A DNA stretch of 52,972 nt from a virus. The notes under the pieces were generated by a model that made no database searches, was not told the origin of the DNA, and was given only the letters and a program-made list of their open reading frames with translations. Position 1 is the first letter of the stretch; each line of letters begins with the position of its first letter. Below are positions 10,212-47,478 of this stretch, piece by piece. The DNA is taken from IMG/VR virus record IMGVR_UViG_3300042379_000073, positions 1 through 52,972 of that record; one strand, 5' to 3'. The translations under genes and the position numbers were made by a program.

Positions 10212-11768
10212 ATGGCACTCACATTTAACCCATTTACTGGTACGCTTGATTTCACTGGGAGTCAAGCAGCCGCAGCAATTGGGGCTACAGGGGCTACTGG
10301 CCCATCTGGAGGCCCAACTGGGGCTACGGGCGCGACTGGAAGCACAGGCGCGACTGGAATAGGAACAGATGGAGCCACAGGCAGCACTGGAGCTAGCGGA
10401 ATTAATGGTAATGATGGAGCTACTGGTTCCACGGGATTACAAGGGCCAACGCCTTGGACATTGCCAGCGACAGTATACGACAACGGAGCTTCTTACAATC
10501 TTGGCGCAGCAGTCACCTATCTTGGTGGGTATTATTACAGAACTGGCAACCCACTAAACCCCGGTTATCCACCAACACCCGGATCAATTAATGCGTCATG
10601 GACACCAGTTGCTGATGGTGGTGCTACTGGCCCAGATGGTGCAACAGGAGCCACAGGAACGGCTGGACTAGATGGGGCCACTGGTTCTACTGGTGCAACT
10701 GGAATTGCTGGATTGGACGGTTCGACTGGAGCCACGGGAGCCACGGGTGTAGCTGGAACTGACGGAGCAACGGGTTCAACTGGAGCCACTGGGATTCAAG
10801 GGGATGTCGGAGCGACTGGGGCTACTGGTATCCAAGGAGACGTTGGAGCGACTGGCGCAACGGGTGATCTCGGAGCCACGGGCGCAACGGGAGCTACAGG
10901 CTTGACTGGAGTTAGAGGGGCCACTGGAAGCACTGGTTTGGATGGAAGCACTGGGGCCACAGGATTACAAGGCCCACAAGGATTTAGTTCTGGTGCAGCA
11001 TATTATTTTAATCCTTCCGATTCATCAGATATCCTTGGATATTATGAAATGAATCGTGATTTGGTAATTGGAGTCGGAACAACACTTACTGCTTCTGGTG
11101 CAGGAGCGCAATTAGTTGGATCATTTGCAACAATTTCAAGTGATCCTAATGTTACTACAATTACAGCAGGAAATTGGAATTTTGAAAATTTTGTTTCGAT
11201 GAGTTCCAATGGAGGAACACCAAAAATTTATGGTGAGATTTATTATCGAAATCTTGCTGGAACAGAAACGCTAATTGCAACAAATGTTGTTAATCCGCAT
11301 CCAATCACAGATGGAACTGTCAACGAATTGTATTTGTGGAGCATTCCAGTTCCTGCAACAAATGTTTTATCCACGGATAGAATTGTTGTTAAGTTTTATG
11401 CCATTGATCTTGGCGGAAGAACAATGACAATGCATTTTGAGGATAGTCATGTTGCTCAAGTTGTTAGTTCTCTATCGCCAGCAACTCAAGGGGCTACTGG
11501 AGCGACCGGGGCAACAGGAATTGGAGCGACAGGTGCAACTGGTATCCAAGGCGATATCGGTTCGACAGGGGCCACAGGCGCAACAGGAATTGGAATTCAA
11601 GGAAGCACAGGAGCCACGGGAGTTACGCCAGCAAATATTGTTCTCTCGGATATAACTGGTTTATCAGGTGCAACCCAATTAACCAATCTTGTTGAAATCA
11701 CTCAAACTGGATACAATTTAATCGTTACCCCAGACCCGAACACGTTGTATGTAATTGTTGGGCCATAA
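10212..11768 (+). CDS. Collagen-like tail fibre protein 1
   Basis: 518 residues. An N-terminal anchor ([14 protein letters not shown]) precedes Gly-X-Thr triplets (GATGATG pattern) at about residues 20-75. Then comes a ~60-residue carbohydrate-module-like insert with [12 protein letters not shown] second triplet block spans about 138-257, followed by a beta-rich globular domain (~258-425), a third triplet block (~428-475) and a short C-terminal cap. Such triplets form collagen-like triple helices in phage fibres. The mid-chain globular domain interrupting the shaft is notable. Confidence 0.85.
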
Positions 11769-12863: not shown

Positions 12864-14222
12864 ATGGGAAACTGTGATTCAAACTGTGGTGGGCCAAGCC
12901 TAAATGCAATGCGCGAGTTGGCTAATAGATCAGCTTACTGGGCGCGTATAGCTCAACAAGCCGCGATTGACGCTGGCGCAACGGGTGCTACTGGGCCAGA
13001 AGGCGCGACTGGGGCAACAGGCATTCAAGGTCTTACTGGTGCGACTGGTGACTTGGGTTCTACAGGATTAACTGGATCAACTGGCTTAGAAGGTGCTACG
13101 GGTTCGACTGGAGTAGGAACAACAGGAGCTACAGGCGTTGATGGCCCCACTGGTGCTACTGGGCCAAGCGGTGGGCCAACTGGCGCAACGGGGCCAGATG
13201 GAGCTACGGGAAGCACAGGCCCAGACGGGGCATCTGGAGCTACAGGCCCAGACGGTTCTACGGGCGCAACGGGTGCTACGGGTGGAATTGGGCCAGATGG
13301 TGCTACTGGAGCTACGGGAGACCTCGGAGCAACAGGGGCCACTGGATTTGGTATCCACGGCTCGACTGGTGCTACTGGCATGGTCGGCCCTCGCGGAGCT
13401 ACTGGACTCACTGGTGGACTTGGAGCCACTGGATCAGGTTCTACTGGAGCAACGGGAGACACAGGAGCTACTGGCCCAAGCGGTGGCCCTACTGGAGCTA
13501 CCGGCATTGACGGGGCGACTGGTTCTACGGGCGCGACAGGCGCGACTGGCTTAACTGGTGTGGTTGGCCCAACTGGTGCTACGGGATTAGATGGTGATAG
13601 ATACCATACCACAAGCACAACTGTACTTACGATTGTATCAAGTGGACTTATTACTTTAACAACCGCTGACCTTAACCTTGATTATAGCATTCAGCAAAGC
13701 GTCATTGTTGCATTCTCAATCGGTCAGTATATGAATGGCAGGGTTGTCTCGTACAGTCCATCAACTGGTGTATTAGTTGTAGATGTTGAAAGCTCACTTG
13801 GTTCTGGAATAAATTTAACTCCTTGGGAAGTTAACCTTGATGGTGCTGTTGGAACTATCGGCTCAACGGGTGCTACAGGCGCGACTGGGGCTGGCGCAAC
13901 GGGAGCCACGGGTCTAGTAGGATTGGATGGAGCCACGGGTTCTACTGGGGCCACAGGGGCCACTGGCGAAGGAGCTACGGGTGCTACTGGTGTATTAGGT
14001 TTAGACGGAGCTACAGGAACAACTGGAGCTACTGGCCCACAAGGATTAGCTGGTGGAGCCACTGGTGCTGGAACTGACGCTATCTTCTGGGAGAATGGGC
14101 AATCAGTAAATACATCCTACTCAATTCCAATTGGAATTAACGCAGGAAGTTTTGGCCCAATCACAGTTCAAGCTGGCGTGACCGTAACGGTTCCCGCTGG
14201 TGGAGTATGGACTGTGGTGTAA
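12864..14222 (+). CDS. Collagen-like tail fibre protein 2
   Basis: 452 residues. A ~35-residue N-terminus with two Cys and a helical segment is followed by long Gly-X-Thr/Ala triplet blocks (~38-245), a ~75-residue beta domain, a second triplet block (~330-398) and a C-terminal knob. The knob ends in [15 protein letters not shown], nearly identical to the end of the protein at 14266, so both probably display the same tip. The anchor differs from that of 10212. Confidence 0.85.
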
Positions 14223-38980: not shown

Positions 38981-39066
38981 TTAGATTTTATTTTAATCAA
39001 AGATCAATTTGCGGATTCACTCGCCAACCCTGCATTTAAAAGGTTCTGACGACTGCCACGCCTCTA

Positions 39067-39094
39067 ATTATAGACGGCCTCGCCACTATGTCAA
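39067..39094 (-). promoter_or_regulatory. Consensus promoter of the helicase operon
   Basis: On the minus strand: TTGACA (39094-39089), 16-bp spacer, TATAAT (39072-39067). Both hexamers are exact consensus, the best promoter in the window; expected +1 near 39060. Confidence 0.85.
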
Positions 39095-39403
39095 TAGATT
39101 ATTTTCATCTATTTTCATTGTGTCGCCTAGTGTCACAAGCAAGAATCATGCCAAGCTGTCAATAGCTTTTTATTAGCAAGAGCCATGCCAAGATGAAACG
39201 TGATAAAGCGCAAAAATCCCCCATGCCAATACACAGCCCAACTCAAACAAAGCCCACCAGCGCCATCCTCGCGCAATGATTTTCGGCGTTGTCTCGCCAT
39301 ATACAGCGAAGTAGCCTTTTTCCCATCATGCTGTAAAATCACGCCAATCCCTCACAATATAGCAAATGCCATTTTCGCCAATATCGCGCCCTATTCAATC
39401 ATG

Positions 39404-43883: not shown

Positions 43884-44074
43884 GGAAGCAAACTATCTAT
43901 ATCTTGTAACTCTGTCAATACATTTATCTGAATAAAGTATTCGTTGTAGATTTTCATTCCTTCGTTCCAGTAATTCTCCGCTATGCAATATCTCTCTTTA
44001 TCTTGTGACTCCCATATATGGAGGGCAGCATCCATGAATCTGGATGCCTTCTCGTATGCTTTATCTGTTGACAT
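43880..44074 (-). CDS. Small helical protein
   Basis: 64 residues with an ASRFMDAALHIWESQDKERY segment. Coupled to the DnaB-type helicase upstream (its ATG shares a base with the stop). Not recognised. Confidence 0.5.
   Translation of the reverse strand: MSTDKAYEKASRFMDAALHIWESQDKERYCIAENYWNEGMKIYNEYFIQINVLTELQDIDSLLP
43890..43918 (-). promoter_or_regulatory. Internal promoter giving a leaderless start
   Basis: Minus strand TTGACA (43918-43913), 17-bp spacer, TAGTTT (43895-43890). +1 expected at ~43883, exactly the start codon of the coiled-coil protein. Confidence 0.5.
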
Positions 44075-45324
44075 TAGAATACCTCCTCGATGCGTGAAGT
44101 CTCCCCGTGCATGATAATATCTATTCTGTAATCTTTCGGGCCGCGCCTATTCTTCTTCACGGTCACTTGGCTTTTTGTTTTCAAATGCTCAACGTAAATA
44201 ATCTGATTACTATGCATCCCAATCGCCCGGCTCTCTCGTAACCTTCCTTCATCATTTAACTGGGAGGCTGTTAGCAGTACGAGTTTGTTAACGGACGCTG
44301 ATACTTTTAACCTTCTTGTAATCTCAGAGATAGCATTCTCTCTGTTATCTACACCCTCAATGGATACGATCTGGAGGTAGTCTACGATAACCACATCTGC
44401 GCGGTTTTCACCCACATATCGGTTAATATTGGCCTCAATATCGTTAATATCACTGATAGCATCTATGATTTGGAGTGGCATACCATGCAATTTGGTCAGT
44501 GCATTGGTGATTGCGTCCAGTTCTACCTTGTTTGCGTTGAGATATTCTGCTCTTTCGCGGATCGGATAGCCAGCCATGTTGCAAGCCATACGAGTCAGGA
44601 TGTCTTTGGCGTTCATTTCTAGTGAAAAGAAGATAACCGACTTGTTGTTGAGTAGATTTGCTACTGCTGCTTGGACTAGAAAGATGGATTTACCTCCACC
44701 AGTCTCTGAAGCTACCGTCAAAAGCTCTCCATGATGCAGTCCGCCCCTCAATGTTCTGTCTAATCGGATCATTCCTGTGGTAAAACACTCTTCTTTGGAC
44801 TTACCTTCCATCTCGTCGATGATTTCCAAGATAATATCTTTGACTGGCTTGATTTTTACACCTCGATCCTCCGAACATCTCATTATCGTTTCCGATAATT
44901 TCTTCAAATCGGACTTTCCTACTCTGATATTCGGTTCTTCTTCCTCGATAACCTTGATGACATCGCGGTATCCTTTGTTTCTGACTAGCTGCTTGCGGTA
45001 ATCGTCCGCCATATCCTGACAAACCTTCCCAGAAGCAATCTTCATGGTAGAAAGAATCTCATGGACTTCATTCTCTCCTCCCGCCGCTTCGATTTCGCCT
45101 GTTGCTTCTAACTCAGCAATGGCAGAAAACGGGCAGCAAGCCCCTGTTCGCTGGTGAACCCCTTGGAGTGCAGTAAAAACCTTCCTGTGGGGCGGCAGAG
45201 CGAAATAATCCACATCCCACGTTTGTTGCGAGAGGATGTTTCTGTCTATTGCGATTAAAGCTAACGCTGCTGCCTCGCTTTTGGTTGCCATTGGGACTAC
45301 TTTCATTAGTGGTATTTTTTTCAT
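44074..45324 (-). CDS. dnaB: DnaB-type replicative helicase
   Basis: 416 residues. An N-terminal domain (~15-110) with AALALIAIDRN and YFALPPHRKVF recalls the DnaB N-domain. RecA-like motor: Walker A ASETGGGKS (~205-213), FSLEM (~233-237), Walker B VIVDYLQI (~312-319), then LTASQLN. It unwinds DNA at the fork. Located downstream of the initiator, as in many phage replication modules. It contains palindrome copy 15. Confidence 0.9.
   Translation of the reverse strand: MKKIPLMKVVPMATKSEAAALALIAIDRNILSQQTWDVDYFALPPHRKVFTALQGVHQRTGACCPFSAIAELEATGEIEAAGGENEVHEILSTMKIASGKVCQDMADDYRKQLVRNKGYRDVIKVIEEEEPNIRVGKSDLKKLSETIMRCSEDRGVKIKPVKDIILEIIDEMEGKSKEECFTTGMIRLDRTLRGGLHHGELLTVASETGGGKSIFLVQAAVANLLNNKSVIFFSLEMNAKDILTRMACNMAGYPIRERAEYLNANKVELDAITNALTKLHGMPLQIIDAISDINDIEANINRYVGENRADVVIVDYLQIVSIEGVDNRENAISEITRRLKVSASVNKLVLLTASQLNDEGRLRESRAIGMHSNQIIYVEHLKTKSQVTVKKNRRGPKDYRIDIIMHGETSRIEEVF
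44883..44898. promoter_or_regulatory. 16-bp palindrome, copy 15 (TTATCG-TTTC-CGATAA)
   Basis: Perfect arms inside the helicase gene, read on the minus strand as LSETIM. Confidence 0.75.
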
Positions 45325-45325
45325 T

Positions 45326-46315
45326 TTATTTATTTTCCTTTAAGAATTCTGAATGCTCGTTCTGCTGTTGCTGGCACAACTCCGTTTCCAAGGAGTCGCA
45401 GTTCGTCAGTTCGATTGTCATAGGTCGTATACAACTCGGCATAGTCCATCCTATCGGAAGACCCATCAGAGTCTCGACCCAGCGGGGATTGAGTTTGCCA
45501 GTTGTTTTCCCGCAATGCCCCGCAATCTCCTCCTCCAGATTTGACTTGTTGCGTGTCGCTAGTTGCTGCCGATTCTCCTCGGTGATCTCTGGGTGTACCT
45601 TGTTTGCTCTCGGCGTTGCCCACGACTCTTGGCGGTTCCCATGCGTATTGCTGTTGACCGGGTCTACTGGGCCATACTTGACCGCATCCGCTAGCTTCGC
45701 TCCATACGCCACAGGGTTCTCCTGCGTGTGGTTGTGGTAGCTCACCGCTCGACCATCTTTCCACTCGGTCTTGTAACTCCCGCCAGTCGTATCCATCACA
45801 GATGCGGTCGGCCAAGATGAAGACGCGCTTGCGCTGGTGAGGTGCGCCGACTTCACGCGCAGAGAATATTCCCCACGACACTTTATAACCCATTGATTCC
45901 AACTCTCCAACGACCTCTCGGAGTCCAAGGCTGATATGTCCTTCGACGTTTTCAAAGAAGCACATTCGGGGTCGAAGAAGTCGAATTCCGTCTGCGATCC
46001 AAGGCCAGAGGTGGCGGGGGTCTTCTTTTCCTGCTCTTTTTCCTGCGGCAGAGAACGGCTGGCAAGGGTATCCTGCAATAAGGATGTCCACCAGTCCGTG
46101 AAACGATTCGTATGGGAAGGTTTTAAGATCGTTCCATAGAGGTGCGACATCCATGAGTCCTTTTTCCATTTTACTGATGAGATTGGCTTGAGCGAACCCC
46201 TCAAGTTCACAATATGCGAGGGTTCGCATTCGTTCTCCAAAGATGTTTTTGAGTCCAAGTCCAATGCCGCCATATCCGGCGCACATTTCAATAGTTGTGA
46301 TGGTAGTATCCACAT
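45326..46315 (-). CDS. Second open frame over the cytosine methyltransferase (possible overprinted gene)
   Basis: 329 codons with no stop, starting 2 bp upstream of the methyltransferase ATG and ending 4 bp beyond its stop. It contains SSWPTASVMD (~167-176), SWATPRANK (~229) and LNPRWVETLMGLPIGWTMP (~280-298). I recall such W-P-T-P and L-N-P-x-W-V-E motifs as a recurrent hypothetical protein near phage cytosine methyltransferases. Either a true overprinted gene or a frame kept open by constraint on the methyltransferase; this cannot be settled by eye. Confidence 0.4.
   Translation of the reverse strand: MWILPSQLLKCAPDMAALDLDSKTSLENECEPSHIVNLRGSLKPISSVKWKKDSWMSHLYGTILKPSHTNRFTDWWTSLLQDTLASRSLPQEKEQEKKTPATSGLGSQTEFDFFDPECASLKTSKDISALDSERSLESWNQWVIKCRGEYSLRVKSAHLTSASASSSWPTASVMDTTGGSYKTEWKDGRAVSYHNHTQENPVAYGAKLADAVKYGPVDPVNSNTHGNRQESWATPRANKVHPEITEENRQQLATRNKSNLEEEIAGHCGKTTGKLNPRWVETLMGLPIGWTMPSCIRPMTIELTNCDSLETELCQQQQNEHSEFLKENK
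45330..46313 (-). CDS. DNA C5-cytosine methyltransferase
   Basis: 327 residues. Motif I EMCAGYGGIGLGL (~9-21), motif IV GYPCQPFSAAGKR (catalytic Cys ~84), motif VI ENVEGH (~121-126), motif VIII QRKRVF (~160-165), and near the C-terminus RLLGNGVVPATAERAF (motifs IX-X). Between them lies a variable target-recognition region. It methylates cytosine at C5, probably as protection from host restriction. Located between helicase and initiator. Confidence 0.93.
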   Translation of the reverse strand: MDTTITTIEMCAGYGGIGLGLKNIFGERMRTLAYCELEGFAQANLISKMEKGLMDVAPLWNDLKTFPYESFHGLVDILIAGYPCQPFSAAGKRAGKEDPRHLWPWIADGIRLLRPRMCFFENVEGHISLGLREVVGELESMGYKVSWGIFSAREVGAPHQRKRVFILADRICDGYDWRELQDRVERWSSGELPQPHAGEPCGVWSEASGCGQVWPSRPGQQQYAWEPPRVVGNAESKQGTPRDHRGESAATSDTQQVKSGGGDCGALRENNWQTQSPLGRDSDGSSDRMDYAELYTTYDNRTDELRLLGNGVVPATAERAFRILKGK

Positions 46316-46343: not shown

Positions 46344-47120
46344 TTAAAAGTTAGCGAAGCGTTCTGGTTGTACTACATTCTTGGAGCGGATAACCCAAGC
46401 ACTCAGGAACGCACGGGAGTACTTACGTTCTGGGTGACTGAGTAGCCAACTCTGTGCGTGTTTCGCTTCACGCTCCACGTCTTTGTCTGGGTTTAGTTTT
46501 TGAAGTTCTGCTAGGAACTCAGCGTCTACTGGTTTTGGTACTTTAGTCTTCCTGCCCTTGGGTGGGTTAGCGGCGGGAGGTTGCTGGTTAAATAATTCAG
46601 AGGTCTGGAATCCATTTGAAGTTTTATCATCACTGCTATTCGATGAAGCGGTAGCTGAATCGGATGATGGTTCTATTGATGGTTCATTATGATGGTTCAT
46701 TATAGAGAGACTAACCGGGGTTACCCCCTCCACCCAGTAACCGGGGTTATCCCCTCCCCCACTAACCCGTGTTACCCCCTCAACTGACTTATTTCTGCTT
46801 GGAGCCATAGCTTGTTGAATGACATCTCGACTGATTTCATCATCTCCAATTCTATCAACAATGATTGTGTAAAGATTCGATGTCTGCCTTCCAAAATGAT
46901 CTTCACGCTCATCTCGCGTGACAACTCCAATCTGAATAAAAGCATTCAAATACTTCTTTAAAATAGGTTCAGAAACATTCGCTTTATCTGCCAATTTTCT
47001 TATAGATGGCCAGCAACTAGCATCGTCATTACAAGAATCAGCTAGAGCAAGTAGAACCAATCTCGCGTTACCTTGGGTCTTGCTACGCTCAAAGACCTCT
47101 GACATTATTTTAACACTCAT
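46344..47120 (-). CDS. Replication initiator-type HTH protein
   Basis: 258 residues from MSVKIM (47120). Winged HTH at ~5-75 (NARLVLLALADSCNDDASCW, PSIRKLADKANVSEPILKKYL) as in phage replication O/DnaD-type initiators. A low-complexity Ser/Asp-rich middle (~110-190) carries DNA iterons. A C-terminal domain follows (DVEREAKHAQSWLLSHPERK). Next to a DnaB helicase, it fits an origin-binding protein that loads it. Confidence 0.7.
   Translation of the reverse strand: MSVKIMSEVFERSKTQGNARLVLLALADSCNDDASCWPSIRKLADKANVSEPILKKYLNAFIQIGVVTRDEREDHFGRQTSNLYTIIVDRIGDDEISRDVIQQAMAPSRNKSVEGVTRVSGGGDNPGYWVEGVTPVSLSIMNHHNEPSIEPSSDSATASSNSSDDKTSNGFQTSELFNQQPPAANPPKGRKTKVPKPVDAEFLAELQKLNPDKDVEREAKHAQSWLLSHPERKYSRAFLSAWVIRSKNVVQPERFANF
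46666..46698. repeat. Three GATGGTTC direct repeats beside the iterons
   Basis: GATGGTTC at 46666, 46678 and 46691 (spacing 12 and 13), with AT-rich bases between. They lie 14 bp from the iteron cluster, as unwinding elements often do. Confidence 0.65.
46712..46788. repeat. Three 25-26 bp iterons inside the initiator gene (candidate origin)
   Basis: Units start at 46712, 46738 and 46763, each opening with TAACCGGGGTTA or a close variant and continuing CCCCTC. The first two contain the perfect palindrome TAACC-GG-GGTTA. Spacings of 26 and 25 bp break the reading frame, so the repetition is kept at DNA level. Initiator-gene iterons are known in lambda-type origins. Confidence 0.65.
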
Positions 47121-47398
47121 TTGGAAGCCTCCAACCAAGATGCTTGTTCGTTTAAAAACCATTTACCTTCAGTATTGGCCTTTAAAAAACCAAGACCAGC
47201 TAATGCCATGAATGCGTTGTTAGCTTGAATATCTGAAATTCTAGCTATCTCAGCTAAATCATTCATGTTTTCTTTATCGAACCCTCCCTCAAAGTTGTCG
47301 ATTATTGCCAGCACTTGTTTTTTCCTGTCATCAAATAACGACAGGTTCATTATTTCTCTGCGAACGAAAATTCCTCCGTTCATCTTTAATGGATTCAT
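47117..47398 (-). CDS. Small winged-helix-like protein upstream of initiator
   Basis: 93 residues (an internal Met would shorten it by 5). The middle (MNDLAEIARISDIQANNAFMALAGLGFLK) looks like a winged-helix half. Overlaps the initiator by 4 bp. Possibly a regulator of replication. The start lies right after a leader hairpin and T-run. Confidence 0.55.
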   Translation of the reverse strand: MNPLKMNGGIFVRREIMNLSLFDDRKKQVLAIIDNFEGGFDKENMNDLAEIARISDIQANNAFMALAGLGFLKANTEGKWFLNEQASWLEASK

Positions 47399-47400
47399 AT

Positions 47401-47478
47401 TAAAAAGGCGGTCACTTGTAGCGGCAGAATAAACTGGCGAACTGACAGATGAGAGTGGTTAGACCACTACAAGCGACC
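47401..47478 (-). promoter_or_regulatory. Attenuator-like leader of the replication operon
   Basis: Arms 47410-47424 and 47464-47478 pair over 15 bp with two G-T pairs. On the minus strand the stem is followed by GCC and TTTTT, immediately before the ATG at 47398. An alternative small hairpin (GTGGT-TAG-ACCAC, 47455-47467) uses part of one arm. This fits a terminator/antiterminator switch. Confidence 0.5.

Follow-up and report, generated by a model that had tools for sequence, protein, structure and literature searches.

A conserved GAACC triplet, shared by phages of distant hosts, beside the in-gene iterons of a candidate lambda-type origin in an O-like initiator gene

Results

The replication locus and its initiator protein

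The window, by which we mean the whole stretch of DNA analysed here, is a complete viral record of 52,972 bp from an uncultured phage. A gene for an O-like replication initiator lies on its minus strand, with the gene for the phage's DnaB helicase downstream. The features of the locus, in gene order, are the following.

46347..47120, minus strand: O-like replication initiator gene (PHROG 8540, E 2.1e-24, and PHROG 391, E 1.6e-18, both 'replication initiation O-like'; HTH_36, PF13730, above cut-off)
46785..47120, minus strand: predicted N-terminal winged-helix DNA-binding domain (AlphaFold2 pLDDT about 80-94 up to residue 100)
46763..46774, plus strand: iteron 1 in gene order, TAACCCGTGTTA (coding strand TAACACGGGTTA), from repeat search and relatives
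46738..46749, plus strand: iteron 2, TAACCGGGGTTA, from repeat search and relatives
46712..46723, plus strand: iteron 3, TAACCGGGGTTA, from repeat search and relatives
46669..46698, minus strand: GAACC triplet, candidate unwinding element (coding strand GAACCATCATAATGAACCATCAATAGAACC), conserved in relatives and other phages, with an unstable duplex
46347..46550, minus strand: C-terminal helical module, swapped separately from the N-module (module comparison among relatives, AlphaFold2 model)
45330..46313, minus strand: gene for a C5 cytosine DNA methyltransferase, flanked by those of the initiator and the DnaB helicase (PF00145, E 2.1e-31)
44074..45324, minus strand: DnaB-like replicative helicase (DnaB_C, E 9.5e-31; PHROG 19, E 1.7e-53)

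The initiator is 258 amino acids long when counted from a conserved MSVKIM start, within an ORF that opens at 47162. In profile searches it was matched by several PHROG families of O-like replication initiators and by the N-domain profile HTH_36 (PF13730; 26.6 bits against a cut-off of 25). By these profiles it is a member of the HTH_36 O-like initiators, a class taken here as PF13730 with PHROG 8540, 391 and 1032. Membership of the lambda O family was rejected, since Phage_rep_O (PF04492), which finds lambda O itself at E 5.7e-36, did not match the window initiator up to E 0.5; BLASTP of the window initiator against lambda O likewise showed no similarity. In the AlphaFold2 model residues 1-100 form a confident winged helix and residues 108-191 a disordered linker, followed by a three-helix C-domain that presumably contacts the helicase. 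The linker lies right over the repeats described below, which are where an initial annotation placed them, in the middle of an initiator gene. Among solved structures the best sequence match was DnaD (2vn2, E 0.013). Fold matches in the PDB were generic winged helices only, including DnaD-N and plasmid Rep entries (Rep Z about 8), and were not discriminating.

Several side features of the window were also recorded. The iterons are GC-rich, and a C5 cytosine methyltransferase gene separates the initiator gene from that of DnaB. An inverted repeat, GGTCACTTGTAGCGG / CCACTACAAGCGACC (47410-47478, arms 39 bp apart), which may be an operator or a terminator, occupies non-coding DNA upstream of the replication genes. 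On the plus strand, 10212-11768 and 12864-14222 encode two collagen-like proteins, densely repetitive in G-A-T, that are probably tail fibre or adhesin proteins.

Three iterons and a GAACC triplet within the initiator gene

The iterons are imperfect palindromes with the core TAACN4GTTA, carried on 24-bp units that start at 46710, 46736 and 46761, in steps of 26 and 25 bp. The initial annotation had all three units beginning with TAACCGGGGTTA; three units are indeed present, of which two start exactly so and the other starts with TAACCCGTGTTA. Iteron 2 is read in a different frame from iterons 1 and 3. The array has a triple-repeat score of 60 out of 72, a value reached by none of 300 synonymous shuffles (maximum 49) and by none of 300 base shuffles (maximum 44). 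With at most one mismatch, TAACCSSKGTTA occurs 10 times in the window against 0.94 expected, and 6 of the 10 matches fall inside the array. Tandem Repeats Finder reported 13 arrays in the 53 kb window; all have periods divisible by three except 46710-46781 (period 25) and 46664-46703 (period 13). Together, these results confirm the repeats, which far exceed what chance would produce.

The second of these arrays contains the triplet. Copies of GAACC lie at 46694-46698, 46681-46685 and 46669-46673, in gene-order steps of 13 and 12 bp, with the first copy out of frame. On the plus strand they appear as GATGGTTC at 46666-46673, 46678-46685 and 46691-46698 (spacing 12 and 13), which are the three neighbouring repeats at 12-13 bp that had been noticed from the outset. 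Nowhere else in the window, on either strand, do three GAACC copies occur within 45 bp. Synonymous shuffles of a single gene nevertheless often yield three copies (P = 0.14 for the window). Counting GAACC against such shuffles is a weak test of any one gene; over all 25 genes the count was 15, with 2.8 expected. We therefore used a codon-identity test, and the case for the triplet rests on comparison across phages.

The triplet is only mildly AT-rich. Its site in the window ranks at the 5th percentile of the least stable 40-bp stretches, but at the 100-bp scale it is of ordinary stability (41st percentile), which counts against the origin reading. In 13 phages duplex stability reaches a local minimum over the triplet, next to stable iterons. 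This short-range instability, together with the position of the triplet, would fit an unwinding element.

Iteron dialects change with the recognition helix

Scans of IMG/VR yielded 37 distinct sequences of this initiator type, including the window, all covering the linker. Loss of the repeats from relatives that keep the initiator had been raised as a possible counter-observation; we looked for it and found the array kept in all 36 others (37/37 with the window). Scans of genome contigs returned no host or prophage relatives. An unconditioned viral scan with a gamma N-domain gave near-identical E. coli prophages, which were left out of the counts.

The iterons of these relatives fall into three dialects: A, TAACN4GTTA, in 26 sequences; B, TGAACCAGTTCA, in 8; and C, GTAAN6TTAC in four copies, in 3. 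Dialects A and B share three copies and the 25/26-bp geometry at corresponding places in a gapless alignment, and in most relatives one half-site alone of iteron 2 is well kept. The GAACC triplet is conserved in all 37 sequences, staying while the iterons switch from A to B to C.

We found that the synonymous bases needed by the iteron core are kept. Across the 26 dialect-A sequences, Val is encoded by GTA where the core needs A (23/26 in iteron 1, 25/26 in iteron 3) and by GTT where it needs T (26/26 in both). Both Val codons belong to one peptide, and the Thr wobble base, which lies outside the core, varies. Given an identical residue, codon identity was 0.95 in the iterons and 0.83 in the triplet, against 0.53 in the N-domain. 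Because the middle iteron is read in another frame, no protein repeat explains its conservation. These results show that the iterons are under DNA-level constraint. Linkers of this kind are repetitive at the protein level, but functionless codon repeats arising by chance or low complexity are already contradicted by the synonymous shuffles, the out-of-frame middle iteron and the retention of the array in every relative, and their probability is negligible.

A and B proteins are told apart mainly by positions clustered in the HTH, at residues 41-63; in the alignment used, one row was shifted by two residues, a source of noise that does not itself create the separations. The iteron sequence thus changes in concert with the HTH recognition helix. 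This bears on a further explanation, in which the iterons are an operator through which the initiator or another HTH protein represses transcription within the gene, replication starting elsewhere. DNA-level sites for a winged-helix protein would look alike in both cases, and a promoter scan was non-informative. However, the array lies mid-gene in the linker and not at a promoter, adjoins a locally unstable repeat, agrees in layout with the annotated lambda iterons in O, and has a dialect that tracks the initiator's own HTH. We consider an operator very improbable.

The triplet recurs in phages of other hosts

We compared named phages picked by initiator similarity alone, and so not conditioned on the DNA element. 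The triplet adjoins unrelated iterons in the HTH_36 initiators of phages from Salmonella, Vibrio, Klebsiella, Pseudomonas and others. It reads AGAACCAGTCACTCTTTTGAACCAGTCAnnGAACC, or a close variant, in ST64B, BZS1, ZF40, cdtI, S137, RAH1, BUCT709, Vibrio D290 and D59, and PseuP222, with steps of 17 and 12 bp (the third copy in ZF40 is GATCC), and GAACCGTAATAGAACCATCAnnTGAACC, with steps of 11 and 12 bp, in the Pseudomonas phages PseuP224 and PP9W2. The lambdoid prophages of the SfV, ST64B, cdtI and mEp460 type resemble the window in having in-gene iterons followed by three GAACC copies, and the ST64B initiator has an N-domain of the same family (PF13730; PHROG 8540, 270 and 391). They differ in their unrelated iteron sequences, their C-domain, their GAACC spacing (17 and 12 against 13 and 12) and their unit (GAACCAGTCA against GAACCATCA). 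The GGTTC repeats, which the initial annotation placed next to the iterons, are thus themselves a widely conserved element, a point it had missed.

A pattern scan for GAACCAGTCA pairs, whose counts are conditioned on that pattern, found at least 120 contigs. All 80 contigs that were read carry it in long ORFs of the O-like-initiator type where the N-terminus is covered. The 17-bp step is present in 79 of the 80, and L239, also among them, has the 13 and 12 steps of the window. Among 5426 complete E. coli genomes, 1012 contain the element, with a helix-turn-helix protein gene for every match listed, and in at least 108 phage records, where the annotated full-length matches listed are genes for replication, primosomal, helix-turn-helix or hypothetical proteins. 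It is also found in 15 plasmid records, some of them chromosome-sized. Some HTH_36 phages have a missing or degraded triplet (Klebsiella LV-2017, RcHotPocket, mEp013, Decurro). Degenerate triplets in the divergent relatives L165, L108 and L166 (AAACCATCATTAATAGATCC; AAACCATCACTAAACCATCC; TAACCAGTCATATATAACCAGT) hint that the element may extend to phages of Actinobacteria.

In 11 named gammaproteobacterial phages, identical residues used the same codon in 414 of 416 pairs (99.5%) in the triplet, compared with 1175 of 3058 (38%) in the N-domain. The conserved element is bounded to about 36 bp: on its 3' side ten bases suffice for nucleotide identity to fall from 0.76-1.0 to less than 0.4, and over the iterons it is about 0.4-0.6. 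The triplet encodes E146, P147, E150 and P151. Since these residues hardly vary, if at all, among 31 diverse initiators, the protein may account for part of its conservation. On this ground the downstream repeats could reflect selection for a linear peptide motif, EPxxEP, which might contact the helicase. Against this, the codons are frozen, with AGA for Arg in the first copy in 10/10 cases compared with 13% elsewhere and GTC for Val in 11/11, and the reading frame of the first copy differs. We find it improbable that the peptide motif explains the repeats.

That phages of many bacteria keep the triplet almost letter for letter suggests a common element for opening the DNA, and the constancy of the triplet suggests that its sequence may also be read, beyond being unstable. 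A search of the open-licence literature found no description of the triplet or of these origins, and the string GAACC is absent from the main text of the paper on the BstA/aba element. Relative to that literature the GAACC triplet is new as a conserved DNA element, which is not proof of novelty, as a prior description is possible.

N-domain, iterons and triplet move as one module

Relatives L034 (dialect A) and L035 (dialect B) have C-modules that are 100% identical and N-modules that are 60% identical, and the iteron dialect follows the N-module. Conversely, L034 and L042 share N-modules that are 99% identical and the same dialect, with C-modules just 55% identical. These comparisons show that the N-domain, iterons and GAACC triplet are transferred together as one module and that the C-module is exchanged independently. 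Module exchange of this sort parallels that of lambdoid O proteins. At least five other N-domains occur in front of one and the same C-module, and most of them bring in-gene repeats of their own (L007, L008, L014, L019, L021, L036, L053), and these fusions amount to a set of natural origin chimeras. Behind these other N-modules the GAACC triplet is absent, and several loci carry an A- or purine-rich stretch in its place, like lambda (PMC5043065). Three alternative N-modules (L023, L036, L053) have in common a hairpin-like stretch, CCCCTAACCCCTTnnCAnGGGG, after their repeats at the join between linker and C-module.

The triplet lies exactly between the exchanged N-module with its iterons and the C-module, and both its flanks diverge sharply. 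It might therefore be kept mainly as a recombination junction, a short shared homology for swapping the two modules, with no role in unwinding. However, since other N-modules are joined to the same C-modules without it, the triplet is not needed for exchange. Moreover, homology does not need an internal repeat with a fixed 12-bp spacing, and the triplet sits at a stability minimum. We consider a junction role alone unlikely, even if less so than the peptide motif. Both remain serious rivals that may act in addition, and recombination-junction and unwinding roles may both hold.

Discussion

The retention of the array, the concerted change of the HTH, the linkage to the N-module and the frozen synonymous bases together make the reading as a lambda-type origin well supported. 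We consider it likely that such an origin lies within the coding sequence of this HTH_36 initiator, the N-domain binding the iterons, the triplet opening and DnaB being loaded via the C-domain. The lambda-type layout first proposed is supported by the winged-helix, linker and C-domain organisation of an O-like initiator, the in-gene array and the downstream DnaB gene. Cumulative GC skew, suggested as a check, lends no support, with no extremum or turning point at 46.7 kb, and is confounded here by gene direction. That replication starts at this candidate origin is what we infer from the comparisons above.

As in lambda, whose iterons are annotated at 39034-39118 with a spacing of 20-24 bp, the iterons are imperfect palindromes in the middle of the initiator gene, and the unwinding region, a candidate in the window, follows immediately 3' in gene direction. 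Lambda O binds its iterons as dimers and an AT-rich tract opens (PMC5043065, PMC7466680). The window differs in having an HTH_36 initiator, outside Phage_rep_O and with no BLASTP similarity to O; three iterons where lambda has four; a GAACC triplet in place of the purine-asymmetric A-rich tract (PMC5043065); and a DnaB of the phage's own. The route from iteron binding by an initiator to opening of the strands is an open question, as the title of one study puts it (PMC5043065). In the proposed mechanism, the N-terminal winged helix would bind the three palindromic iterons, presumably as dimers; the resulting complex would destabilise the adjoining triplet, which would open; and the phage DnaB helicase would be loaded through the C-terminal domain.

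RK2 oriV, the origin read by TrfA, likewise combines iterons with short direct repeats of about 13 bp in its unwinding region (a candidate region here). There, Rep binds one strand of the 13-mers, all of which are needed (PMC4081077). In those plasmids the arrangement is not known to lie inside the initiator gene, and the Rep family differs; capture of one triplet strand in the window, as by TrfA and DnaA, is no more than an analogy. Tentatively, and with rather less confidence than in the origin itself, we suggest that phages of distant hosts share the triplet as an unwinding element of specific sequence. The melted GAACC strand would be captured by some invariant portion of the initiator, or by a partner common to these phages, and helicase loading would be set in this way, as TrfA or DnaA read 13-mers, while the iterons and the HTH diversify for replicon specificity.

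If a short element stays constant while iterons, DNA-binding helix and C-domain all change, then recognition and opening would be separate functions in a common class of phage origins. Its presence in E. coli genomes makes this directly testable in laboratory strains, and the GAACC triplet offers a simple mark by which origins of uncultured phages can be located.
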